The notes beneath the pieces are model-generated. The model saw nothing but the letters and a program-made list of their open reading frames with translations, did no database searches and was not told the DNA's origin. Made by a program: the position numbers and the translations under genes. A stretch of 47,892 nucleotides of DNA from a virus: positions 1-47,892 of IMG/VR virus record IMGVR_UViG_3300036945_000482; one strand, written 5' to 3'. Positions 6,906 to 45,080 of this stretch are shown one piece after another (position 1 is the first letter of the stretch; every line of letters begins with the position of its first letter).

Positions 6906-7649
6906 TCAGCTGAACAAGCTGGTCGTCGGCTTCTTGGTGCCAGCGGCTGCAGCAGCACCCTTGGGAGCACCCGCAGTCCCTGCGGCACCGTTGGCACCCT
7001 TGGACTTGTCACGGACGTTGCCCGTGTGCTTGGCTTCCCAGACGGCTGCGAAGGCGGCGTCTTCGGCCTTGGCACGGATCTCGGCAGTCGTCATGCGGTC
7101 ACGCGCACGGAACAGCTTGTCGATCTCGTTCTCTTCACGGGTCTCGCCCGTGGGGACGTACACGCCAGCGTCGTTCTTCTGGGTCTTGTCGACCACCTGC
7201 TTGATGACACCGATCAGGATGTCCTGACCCAGCAGCTCGACCAACATCTCGACCTTCGTCGGGACTTCGGCCTTGGCTTCGGGCGAGTAGGCGTTGACCA
7301 CCTTGGTCTCGGTATCCAGGTCACCGATTTCCTTGCCGACCGTCAGCAGCGCCAGGCTGTTGGCGATGTTGAAACCAGGCAGGTACTGCTTGGCTCCATC
7401 CTTGTCGGTGTAGTAGTTCGTACCACCCTTGGCGGTACCAGAGGTCATCCACAGGGTCTGACGCAGCTCACGACCGGCTTGGGTCTTGGCGTTCAGCACC
7501 AGGCCGACTGCACCACCTGCCGACTTGGTCAGGTAGGCCAGCTTGATGGTGGCCATGTGCAGGCCAGAGTCGAGGACGCCGCCGTTGCCGACGCTGTCAC
7601 GTTCACCGGCGATCGAGGCGTCGGACTTCAGGTTTGCGAGGAGAGACAT
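6906..7649 (-). CDS. Single-stranded DNA-binding protein (N4 gp45-like)
   Basis: A 247-residue protein in the size range of N4 SSB. The N-terminal two thirds are strand-rich with the motif MATIKLAYLTKSAGGA and conserved SGTAKGGTNYYTDKDG and PGFNIANSLALL segments; the last ~35 residues are Ala/Gly/Lys-rich and disordered, ending in TTSLFS. N4 SSB coats single strands for replication and recombination and also activates host RNA polymerase at late promoters through its C-terminus. Its place next to the gp44, gp43 and gp42 homologues mirrors N4. A clear AAGGA ribosome site precedes the ATG. Confidence 0.85.
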   Translation of the reverse strand: MSLLANLKSDASIAGERDSVGNGGVLDSGLHMATIKLAYLTKSAGGAVGLVLNAKTQAGRELRQTLWMTSGTAKGGTNYYTDKDGAKQYLPGFNIANSLALLTVGKEIGDLDTETKVVNAYSPEAKAEVPTKVEMLVELLGQDILIGVIKQVVDKTQKNDAGVYVPTGETREENEIDKLFRARDRMTTAEIRAKAEDAAFAAVWEAKHTGNVRDKSKGANGAAGTAGAPKGAAAAAGTKKPTTSLFS

Positions 7650-41765: not shown

Positions 41766-44155
41766 TCAACACAGTGCGTAGTTCGACTGACGAATCAGCT
41801 CAGGCAGGTTGAAGTTCACCTTGTTGAAGGTACCAGGTGCACCCATGATCTGGCTGAGAAGGTCGTCGAGTACGTTGCTTTCTGCGATCTCAGCCATGAT
41901 CTCTCGGTACATCCAACGCACCTGGTTCAGGTTGTTGGGATGTGCCTTGAACTCATCATGGACAGTGATGAGCTCGAAGGGAAGGTGCTGCAGCATGCCG
42001 GTGAGAATCTGAGCCAGAGCCTGGAGATGCTCGGTGCTCAGGTGGGTGATCTCGTCCCTGTCTAGGTGCGGCAGGATGACGATGTCAGCCAGAGAGCTAC
42101 GCCTGTACTGCTCGATGTAGTACGCCACTTTGGGGCTGAGGGACAGCTCTTCAGGTTTCGTACCCAGGCTGCGCTCGATGAGCTCATCCTCGATGCAGTT
42201 GGCGATGTGCAGGGCAACGCCATGGTCGTAGTTCAGCCTGCGATGCATGCTCCTCAGTACCCACGCATCCATGCTGTGCGTCATGTTCATCTGTTAATGC
42301 TGGGCGTTACTCCAGCACCTTCTACTAGTCGTTTGTGCTTTCTCTCAGCAACGATGCGAGTCCATCGAGCTATGCGTGCATCTTTCATCATCTGAACCGC
42401 TTTTACTGGTTCACTGGCAGTGTCTTTGGTAAGGCACATCCAACCCGTTCTCGATGACTCAGATGGTGTGTTGTTTTTCAGCGTGCGTTGGGCTTGGCTT
42501 CGTAGCGTGTTGTACGGGATTCCGTGGGTGTCTGCTGCGACCTTGATACAGGGGTAACAATAAACAACCTCAGGGAAATCAACATGGACCAAGTAGATCT
42601 CCTTGGCCTTCGGGCTGTCACCTCCAGAGATCTTCTCCGTGATAGCCTTTCTGTGCGCCTCTGAGATTGTTTTTCCACGGTGGTAGCTACCAATGTTGTC
42701 TCGCTCTGCCTGGCTGTAGCGACCGGTTGTCCCCTTGAATTTATTGGGGAACACTTTGGTTAGCCTGGCTTTTTGAACACTTAGTCCGCGCTTTTTACGA
42801 ACCTCTGGCGAATCAACCCTGCCTGTGGTGTCAGGAGGTAGCCCTCCACCAGCAGCAAGATTCCATCCGATCCTAGGCAGTGGGCGGTAATGTTGCTCGA
42901 GCGTGTAGGCAGTCTCTGCATCTGTTGTAGTGCAGAGAATGTCTTGAATGATGGCTCCCACACCGTACTTCTTGAACGCTTGGTGAAGCACTTTGCTTCC
43001 ACCGGTACTACCGTTGATGTGGCAGCGTTTGCGCACATCATTTTGACAAGTTACGCCTACGTACCCCTGTGAAAGGGGGTCGGTGTGCTCTGCCAAGTGA
43101 TACCAGTAAACCAAGTACTCACGCATCTGAATTCCTATCTAGTGAACGCACACTATTGACGCATTAATTGTCTCACGACTAGTAAAAGTTCTCCGATTTT
43201 CATCGGAGTGTCGGACTATATCTTCACCCTATTTCTAGGGGCAGGGCACTTCGGACGGTACTTACCTGTCCTACGGGATTCATAAACTCAGTGAGTTTGT
43301 ATTCCCTAGTCTCTGAACCTTCCTAGGAATCGCTTCCTAGGCTTGGCTGCTGATTAGCATGGGCTTTCGCCGTTAGCCTCCCAGACAATTCACCCTGTAC
43401 ATGGCTCCACATTGCTGTGGGCCTAGCCAATCTCATTTAGCTACATTGCTGAGGCCAGACTTGGCACCTTCGTTCTCGTAGAACTCGTAGGTGAAGCTCG
43501 AATGATCGAGCTCGTCCACCTCGATGCGGGCAGTCTTCTTCTTCATGACCTTGACTCGTGCATCGAAGCCATCAGGCAGCTTCCACGAGTGGGACAAGGC
43601 ATAGGGGTTCCACGAGGCCAGGAGATCCTGGAGCAGTTCCCATGCACCGGGTGCCACGGTGTGAGCAGCCTCGTAGAAGGCATTCAGCTCCGGTGTGTTC
43701 TCACCGAAGATGTTCTTGGGAGACTTCTTCGAGCCGTAAAAACTGTGCATTGTTGCGTCCTTCGCATTGCTGCGAGAGATGTCGACGGCACTGCCCAGGA
43801 TGCCTTCCATGGTCTTGGTGACCTTGGTATAGGCGTCTGCACGCTCATCAGGGTTCACCATGCCAGTGGCTTCAGCACCAGACACGCAGCCTGTGAGGGC
43901 TGACATGATCTGGATGCCAGAGCAGCAGGCATCGAGTCCCACCAGGTGACCGGTAGGGATGCCTTGCTGAGCCTTGCGGATGGCCATGACAGCCTTCGCA
44001 TACAAGGGCTTGGTCTCGGCTTGATCAGCCAGTTGTTCCAGATTGTTGAGGTTGTTGGTAGCCCACTTGATGCGATCTTCGAACGTCATCTTGTCGTGAC
44101 CATACTGGTTGGCTACATCGATGAGCAGGTATTCCCAGCCTGAGTATTTCTTCAC
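41766..44155 (-). CDS. RNA polymerase II large subunit (N4 gp16-like), interrupted by a group I intron
   Basis: Exon 1 is 44155-43439 and exon 2 is 42287-41766, giving 412 residues, the size of N4 gp16. T7-type motifs are complete across the exons: motif A LVGLDACCSG with Asp75, motif B ATMHSFYGSKKSP with the upstream Arg and Lys, then across the splice junction NVA-NMTHSMDA (T7 PNFVHSQDG), and motif C ITVHDEFKAHP. The other subunit is encoded next door. RNAPII transcribes N4 middle genes. The start is GTG after AAGGAACC. Without splicing, exon 1 ends after Ala-Lys at a TGA and the enzyme lacks motif C. Confidence 0.88.
42287..43126 (-). CDS. GIY-YIG homing endonuclease in the intron (279 aa)
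   Basis: The catalytic domain has VYWYHLAEH in place of GIY, GYVGVT for YIG, Arg in DVRKRCH, Glu in TLEQHYRPL and Asn in IGWNLAAGGG. The middle carries HRGKTISEAHRKAI, similar to NUMOD3, and the C-terminus GIPYNTLRSQAQRTL, a helix-turn-helix (NUMOD1-like). It should cut intron-less copies of the polymerase gene. AGGAATTCAG precedes the ATG. Its TGA stop overlaps the 3' splice site by one base, so the ORF spans the intron to its very end. Confidence 0.85.
   Translation of the reverse strand: MREYLVYWYHLAEHTDPLSQGYVGVTCQNDVRKRCHINGSTGGSKVLHQAFKKYGVGAIIQDILCTTTDAETAYTLEQHYRPLPRIGWNLAAGGGLPPDTTGRVDSPEVRKKRGLSVQKARLTKVFPNKFKGTTGRYSQAERDNIGSYHRGKTISEAHRKAITEKISGGDSPKAKEIYLVHVDFPEVVYCYPCIKVAADTHGIPYNTLRSQAQRTLKNNTPSESSRTGWMCLTKDTASEPVKAVQMMKDARIARWTRIVAERKHKRLVEGAGVTPSINR
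42288..43438 (-). mobile_element. Group I intron (1151 nt) with homing endonuclease gene
   Basis: The core is recognisable on the minus strand: AATCAGCAGCCAAGCC, GGTTCAGAGACTAG and AAGATATAGTCC, the conserved pieces around P4-P7 as in T4 td-type introns. P1 can be drawn at the 5' site: exon TAGCT pairs with intron GGCTA, giving the required U-G pair at the splice point. I place the 3' end after G42288, so that GCT joins AAC in frame. The alternative G42291 also keeps frame but adds a Met. The endonuclease ORF sits 3' of P7. Confidence 0.88.
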
Positions 44156-44168
44156 GTTGGTTCCTTAG

Positions 44169-45080
44169 TTAGATTGTTGGTACACCTTCCACCAGCTCTT
44201 CTTTGGCCAGCTCGAGCTGTGCTTTCTTGAAGGCTGCGCCTTGAGGATTCATGTGGTATCCACAGGCGTACATCCGGCCTCGCTTGTCCACCTTGTTGGT
44301 GAAGTAGATGCGATTGCCTGAGGTAGCCATCAGCTTGTAGAAGAAGTAGCTCTGCTTCTTGAAGTGAAGCCAGTGGTCTGCCTTCTCTTGGGTGTCCACT
44401 TCGAAGGTGGGTTCCTCTTCCACTGTGGACAGGAAGTCCGTAGCGAGCTTGAGCTGCACCCTGTTCACGGTGTTGAGAACATCTAGGCAGATGTCCCCAT
44501 CGTGGTGGTTACCTGAGCCCAGGATCAACGAATCGTTGTGGGTGAGGTAGCCACTGCTGTGGTTGTGGGTGAGCTTGAGAGGCTCACACAGCATGGGAGG
44601 CAGGTACTGGCTGTGCTCGATGAAGTGGGTGAGTTCTTCATCGAGTGGGATGCGTGACACCACCATCAAGGAGCTTTGACGCTTCTCTTTGAGGATGTCG
44701 TAGGCATCGGTCTCACACAGTACTGCGATGAGCTCGCCCACTGTGGTGATGGCTTCGACCCGGTCATTGAAGCCCAGTCGATCGCTCATCTGTGCTGACA
44801 CCGAGGTGAACAGCTCAGGCCTGAGCAGGTAGGCCACACCCACGAAGATGTCCATGACCAGGGCTTCAACATCCAGGGTCTGGAGTTGGGCCAGGCGCTT
44901 CATCTTGGATGCGTAGTAGCTTCCCGTGAGGTAGGCCTTGACCAGCTCAGCACCTTGGCTCAGCCTCTGCACCATGATCGGGTTGGCTTGGATAGCCTCC
45001 CTGATCTTGGTGTCGATGTGCTTGCGGTTGTACTGGCCCTCGATGTTCTCTTGGGCCACTACGTCGAGCATGGTTTCCAT
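44169..45080 (-). CDS. RNA polymerase II small subunit (N4 gp15-like, 303 aa)
   Basis: The C-terminal part NRIYFTNKVDKRGRMYACGY then HMNPQGAAFKKAQLELA aligns with the T7 RNA polymerase segment around DWRGRVYA and NPQG, i.e. just before palm motif A. The protein ends at a point where T7 polymerase continues into the part encoded by the neighbouring gene, so the two are natural halves of one polymerase, as N4 gp15 and gp16. It lacks a T7-like promoter-recognition domain of full size. AAGGAGATCTGC precedes the ATG. Confidence 0.87.
   Translation of the reverse strand: METMLDVVAQENIEGQYNRKHIDTKIREAIQANPIMVQRLSQGAELVKAYLTGSYYASKMKRLAQLQTLDVEALVMDIFVGVAYLLRPELFTSVSAQMSDRLGFNDRVEAITTVGELIAVLCETDAYDILKEKRQSSLMVVSRIPLDEELTHFIEHSQYLPPMLCEPLKLTHNHSSGYLTHNDSLILGSGNHHDGDICLDVLNTVNRVQLKLATDFLSTVEEEPTFEVDTQEKADHWLHFKKQSYFFYKLMATSGNRIYFTNKVDKRGRMYACGYHMNPQGAAFKKAQLELAKEELVEGVPTI

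Follow-up and report, generated by a model that had tools for sequence, protein, structure and literature searches.

The 47,892-nt stretch of viral DNA analysed here (referred to below as the window) raises a simple question: what is the 1151-nt element that breaks one of its RNA polymerase genes in two, and what could it do to, or for, the phage that carries it? The gene is an N4-like (Schitoviridae) RNAP2 gene on the minus strand, split into two exons by a group I intron. Exon 1 (43439..44155, minus strand; 239 codons with a GTG start) carries catalytic motifs A and B, and matches both positions 1-239 of phrog_2051, the N4 RNAP2 family (E 2e-99), and the Pfam RNA_pol profile (E 2e-14). Exon 2 (41766..42287, minus strand; 173 codons plus stop) opens with the residues NMTHSMD, holds motif C (VHD) and matches positions 240-401 of the same family (E 1e-43); in the coverage of phrog_2051 the two exons abut at 239/240, with no loss and no overlap. 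Once joined, they encode a 412-aa protein which aligns without a break, from end to end, with the crystallised N4 RNAP2 (PDB 6dt7_B; residues 4-411, 201 bits), exon 1 being covered as well. Directly upstream lies an uninterrupted gene for RNAP1, the small subunit of N4-type RNA polymerase II (44169..45080, minus strand; phrog_2166, N4-like RNA polymerase, E 2e-95). Judged by this end-to-end homology and by the adjoining RNAP1, the interrupted gene encodes the N4-type RNAPII large subunit (RNAP2, gp16), and both the exon matches and the alignment of the joined protein agree with the initial annotation, which had named it as such. The further claim that no active RNAPII exists without splicing also holds at the level of the protein, since the unspliced frame of exon 1 runs into a stop two codons inside the intron (ORF 43433-44155) and yields no complete RNAP2, motif C being absent.

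The intron itself (42288..43438, minus strand) starts with AAAUGAG and ends with ...CAGAUG, that is, with the terminal G, and is recognised by Rfam model RF00028, by homologues at the same site and by covariation in P1. A covariance-model search, which had been proposed as a check on this locus, found the group I core at 43448-43191 on the minus strand (71.1 bits, where the gathering score is 50; E 3.6e-16; whole model length, 1-253), and the Rfam scan of the window gave no other gathering hit, neither a riboswitch nor any other RNA family. This core (43191..43448, minus strand) spans P1 to P9, with P7.1/P7.2-type helices between P7 and P3'. A terminator-like site at 43208-43191 was rejected as a terminator, being the P9 hairpin. 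The internal guide sequence GGCUA (43424..43428, minus strand) pairs with exon UAGCU (43443-43439) and sets a U·G pair at the 5' splice site, as had been claimed for P1; pairs -1 to -5 are kept in five same-site introns, where the guide compensates for exon changes at -4 and -5. The 5' end was placed by the U·G rule and by the homologues, and the 3' end reads ...CAGATG|AAC, so that the junction is GCT|AAC and the reading frame is restored; the U·G rule, the homologues and the continuity of the protein all agree with the length and junction originally given. P10 has 2 bp in this intron, versus 3-5 bp in its homologues. In an alignment of 14 related cores, compensatory changes on both sides were seen for 36 of the 46 predicted pairs, and the P3, P7.1 and P7.2-type helices were recovered with covariation (P7.1/P7.2 corresponding to columns 200-235 and 239-262). 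Introns of subgroup IA carry helices P7.1 and P7.2 between P7 and P3', and on the strength of these two helices the intron belongs to that subgroup. With the core, the P1 U·G pair, the terminal G and the restored frame all present, it is predicted to be a self-splicing group I intron. Near its 3' end lies a further hairpin (42296..42319, minus strand; stem, GUARCG loop, stem, then UUAAC..G; RNAfold -11.5 kcal/mol), which falls inside the endonuclease reading frame and has equivalents, with other stem sequences, in eight or more related introns, namely those of pYD6-A, L138, L063, L171, AD45, L051, L060 and ZC08.

That reading frame (42287..43126, minus strand), located between P9 and the 3'-terminal hairpin, encodes a 279-aa GIY-YIG homing endonuclease with a putative C-terminal region of NUMOD/HTH type. 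Its TGA stop takes the T and G from the end of the intron and the A from the start of exon 2, and hence straddles the 3' splice site, exactly the one-base overrun described before. The protein matches the homing-endonuclease family phrog_314 (E 1e-12) and TIGR01453, 'group I intron endonuclease' (E 8e-7, below the curated cut-off), and is below the cut-off of the Pfam GIY-YIG profile. Six positions in its first 100 residues (Y22, G24, R32, H36, E77 and N89) are invariant in 19 relatives, and the best PDB sequence match of the nuclease-domain profile is the I-TevI catalytic domain (1mk0, E 3e-4). With the catalytic Tyr, Arg, Glu and Asn (Y22, R32, E77, N89) intact, the protein is predicted to be an I-TevI-like endonuclease, and the family match, the I-TevI match and the invariant residues together uphold the earlier assignment to the GIY-YIG nucleases. 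A structure search returned no significant match, either for the full model (pLDDT 69) or for the N-terminal domain (pLDDT 88); the two best matches of this domain were the GIY-YIG enzymes Slx1 and HIGLE (E 0.75 and 2, not significant). In the DNA-binding region we found an HTH-like match only, below cut-off, while NUMOD1 is above cut-off in the nucleases of L138 and L063, and NUMOD3 in that of L138. Compared with the L063 and L138 homologues, the last C-terminal HTH-like repeat is absent, and because of this loss, and because the protein is fused through the 3' hairpin, the nuclease may be less active. No promoter was found at the nuclease gene in the window; single sigma-70-like matches at the L138 and L063 nuclease genes are close to chance. 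A known parallel is the T4 td intron with I-TevI, likewise a phage intron with a GIY-YIG nuclease, in that case with NUMOD and HTH modules; it differs in its host gene, and the td ORF sits in the P6 loop.

Where the intron sits is as informative as what it contains. It is inserted after residue 239 (window RNAP2 numbering, used throughout), at A|N of the block A-N-x-x-H-S-x-D, and therefore immediately before the N, rather than within the N-x-x-H-S-x-D segment as first described. The accompanying statement that all relatives share this target is right for the junction and the downstream side, where GC|AA, CA and GA are found at 98-100% in 111 intron-less RNAP2 genes, and wrong for the upstream side, which is variable (base -1 is T in just 21%). 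Three further N4-like phages carry introns at this site, sharing both the codon and the splice-site pattern: L063 and L138, with homologous endonucleases (that of L063 being 53% identical to the one in the window), and Pseudoalteromonas phage pYD6-A (JF974296), whose intron has no endonuclease and is about 286 nt long. The pYD6-A intron resembles ours in its A|N codon, its 5' and 3' splice patterns and its 3' hairpin, and differs, besides the missing endonuclease, in its RNA core (67% identical); a further intron interrupts RNAP2 of this phage at motif C. Its RNAP2 region (L005 1686-4145) thus holds two group I introns, at sites 239 and 350, and is recorded as separate hypothetical proteins. 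These independent homologues at the same codon confirm the anatomy given in the initial annotation (group I intron, nuclease, RNAPII gene and splice points). Searches for more members through relatives of the nuclease gave one new same-site locus among viral contigs (L171, discussed below) and none in bacterial genomes; scanning for the 3' junction pattern added no member, and scanning for the 5' pattern none among the matches listed. L138 contains a second, weaker group I match (7117-7282, 37.6 bits), flanked by an endonuclease-like ORF and by one similar to an ATPase-like protein of the window (39403-38357).

The distribution of such introns was mapped over RNAP2 loci gathered from viral contigs and phage genomes, a sample that favours uninterrupted genes: 145 loci (111 distinct sequences) have no intron and 15 (12 distinct) are interrupted, to which ZC08 is added from among four partial matches. 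The closest relatives found, L013 and L014 (RNAP2 73% and 71% identical), are intron-less. Interruptions occur at four sites: after 80 in motif A (YH6, L143), at about 120-138 in motif B (L128 and Vibrio phi 1, with a core that Rfam detects weakly or not at all), after 239 (window, L063, L138, pYD6-A) and at 350, in the HD of motif C (pYD6-A again, ZC08, ZQ2, Moonfish, MIF8, L051, L060). In the motif B introns (L128 2855-3695 and L011 2175-3129) an ORF within the intron precedes the recognisable core (33.5 bits or absent in Rfam). The four sites lie in or beside separate 30-nt blocks that rank first, third, fourth and seventh in nucleotide conservation, as expected for homing, group I introns being known to favour conserved codons (PMC2814812). 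Empty sites in close relatives are found together with same-site copies in distant ones, the signature of a mobile intron. Among the phages with introns at other sites, ZC08 (a Pseudomonas phage), ZQ2, Moonfish and MIF8 share with the window a group I intron in an N4-like RNAP2 (RF00028, 89-94 bits) and differ in the insertion at motif C; the Moonfish intron nuclease is annotated as HNH, against GIY-YIG here. For the ZC08 RNAP2, a homing-endonuclease element has been reported, without being named as a group I intron (PMC5418858). Pseudomonas phage YH6 likewise has an RNAP2 group I intron, inserted in motif A instead (CCSG|MQ) and with a core 57% identical to ours. Among open-licence papers we found none on introns at the A|N site of RNAP2. 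Other genes of N4-like phages are also invaded, as reported for the DNA polymerase gene of Pollock, with an intron-encoded HNH endonuclease (PMC4319500), and for the thymidylate synthase gene of pVa5, with a group I intron (PMC5746245).

The same lineage is also found in a second polymerase family. In L171, an intron of the same type, with a homologous nuclease (41% identical), interrupts a single-chain phage RNA polymerase at RGLYA|NITHSLD; in its intron-less relatives, from Alteromonas phages PT11-V19 and R22Y, RGLYANITHSLD is uninterrupted, and the joined L171 protein equals these polymerases exactly across the junction motif. The L171 polymerase is weakly related to RNAP2 (phrog_2051, E 0.01; phrog_414, E 2.5e-6), and among viral contigs no relative of it was found besides itself. 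Alteromonas phage AD45-P1 (L009 2154-4447) has an RNA-polymerase-like gene, recorded as hypothetical proteins, that is interrupted by a group I intron carrying a GIY-YIG ORF; as a same-site case this intron was rejected and counted apart, its junction lying about 4 nt downstream of the equivalent position and in a different phase. With the L171 and AD45-P1 introns residing in other polymerases, the lineage therefore tracks the conserved A-N-x-x-H-S-x-D coding sequence and not one phage family. A single origin of all site-239 RNA cores was rejected in the RNA-core trees (AU test of a single clade, p 0.0006, on a short alignment), whereas the site-239 nucleases are clearly homologous. Given the short alignment, this discrepancy hints at, but does not prove, an exchange of cores and nucleases between introns, by which the two may have come to differ in history.

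Taken together, the core, the splice points, the restored frame, the nuclease residues, the empty sites, the same-site homologues and the second polymerase family make it very probable that the element is a mobile, selfish group I intron which splices out to leave a working RNAP2. Points that weigh against this reading are the short P10, the lost HTH repeat together with the fusion through the 3' hairpin, the non-significant structure searches and the RNA-core trees. Splicing, cleavage and homing are events that we infer from sequence, and they would proceed as follows. The RNAP2 gene would be transcribed through the intron, and the RNA would fold into P1 to P9 plus the 3'-terminal hairpin; guanosine would be used for the cut after GCU, which would then be joined to AAC, the spliced mRNA giving an uninterrupted 412-aa RNAP2, partner of RNAP1. 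The GIY-YIG protein, translated from within the intron, would recognise and cut the intron-less A-N-x-x-H-S-x-D sequence of co-infecting phages, and repair of the cut would copy the intron in (homing). By sitting exactly at a conserved polymerase codon the element would be protected, since an imprecise deletion is fatal to the polymerase and the target has little freedom to change.

An additional role for the nuclease, which would complement homing without excluding it, is interference: by disabling the polymerase gene of N4-like or other podoviruses that infect the same cell, it could benefit its own phage. The model is ΦPA3 gp210 acting against ΦKZ: encoded by an intron within a phage RNA polymerase gene, this nuclease inhibits the co-infecting phage (PMC11620839). 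The two systems are alike in combining a group I intron and a homing endonuclease at conserved polymerase residues, and differ in that ΦPA3 is a jumbo phage with an HNH nuclease and with the intron in the β-subunit of a multi-subunit RNA polymerase (PMC11620839); nuclease activity and competition were demonstrated experimentally for gp210. The target motif is common to very different phage polymerases, with so little identity overall that repair templated by the intron-bearing copy would be hampered, and a role in competition is plausible by analogy. Nevertheless, that several phages carry the same intron shows that gene conversion does happen, and the pYD6-A intron dispenses with the nuclease, for which reasons we regard such a weapon as possible but rather unlikely.

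The initial annotation had suggested instead that splicing works as a timing or host-condition switch, its efficiency varying with time or host state and thereby gating RNAPII and middle transcription. N4-type RNAPII makes the middle transcripts, and the in-frame stop two codons into the intron makes a complete RNAP2 impossible from unspliced RNA; intron sensors have, moreover, been discussed in general terms (PMC11878797). The distribution speaks against it: the closest relatives found lack the intron, as do nearly all sampled RNAP2 genes; other RNAP2 introns occupy different sites (some with a different nuclease type), and no conserved regulatory device can be seen among them; and the same-site relative in pYD6-A lost, or never had, the nuclease. 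The Rfam scan of the window gave no riboswitch or other family that could be recognised as a sensor, and the sporadic occurrence is the pattern of a homing parasite; we did not retain the switch, which we consider very improbable. Equally slight is the chance that the intron has been co-opted, with splicing of the RNAP2 pre-mRNA limiting and responsive to infection stage or host state; if true, a former parasite would gate the change from early to middle transcription.

It is hardly more credible that the intron has degenerated and no longer splices, leaving a three-piece polymerase in which exon 2 is translated alone, from an ATG that the final bases of the intron supply, and the pieces come together as one enzyme. 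The ORF 42290-41766 does begin with this ATG, exon 2 is directly preceded by ATG or TTG in the same-site introns too, and N4-type RNAPII is already a two-piece enzyme. Similar ends, however, occur in introns at other sites, so that the NTG end is intrinsic to the intron; additionally, the core is intact in every element, as are P1 and the terminal G, AUUAACAG upstream of the ATG contains no ribosome-binding site, and the break adjoins a conserved polymerase motif. Finally, an assembly artefact has next to no likelihood, since, although the source is a single metagenome-derived contig, homologous introns at the same codon in one isolate genome and in two further, independent metagenome contigs refute a chimera in substance.

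Two other features of the window were observed along the way. A ribonucleotide reductase (RNR_Alpha; Ribonuc_red_lgC) appears to be split by an intein into two overlapping ORFs (16664-15420 and 15423-13696, minus strand), the first ending in an intein N-part with a GIY-YIG domain and NUMOD3 motifs, and the second starting with the intein C-part (VHN^C). An ORF at 36710-35466 (minus strand) matches Phage_integrase, a tyrosine recombinase (E 2e-13); N4-like phages are usually strictly lytic.

The intron of the window, which we regard as very probably a homing element, is well-formed and ordinary in kind; what is new is its insertion site, the fact that two polymerase families share this site, and how often RNAP2 is targeted. 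Group I introns have repeatedly entered the RNA polymerase encoded by N4-like phages, at four conserved places (in motifs A, B and C and at the A-N-x-x-H-S-x-D block), and one intron/GIY-YIG lineage occupies the same codon of two very different phage polymerases. Since several public records list such genes as separate pieces or hypothetical proteins, polymerase genes may be mis-called as split.
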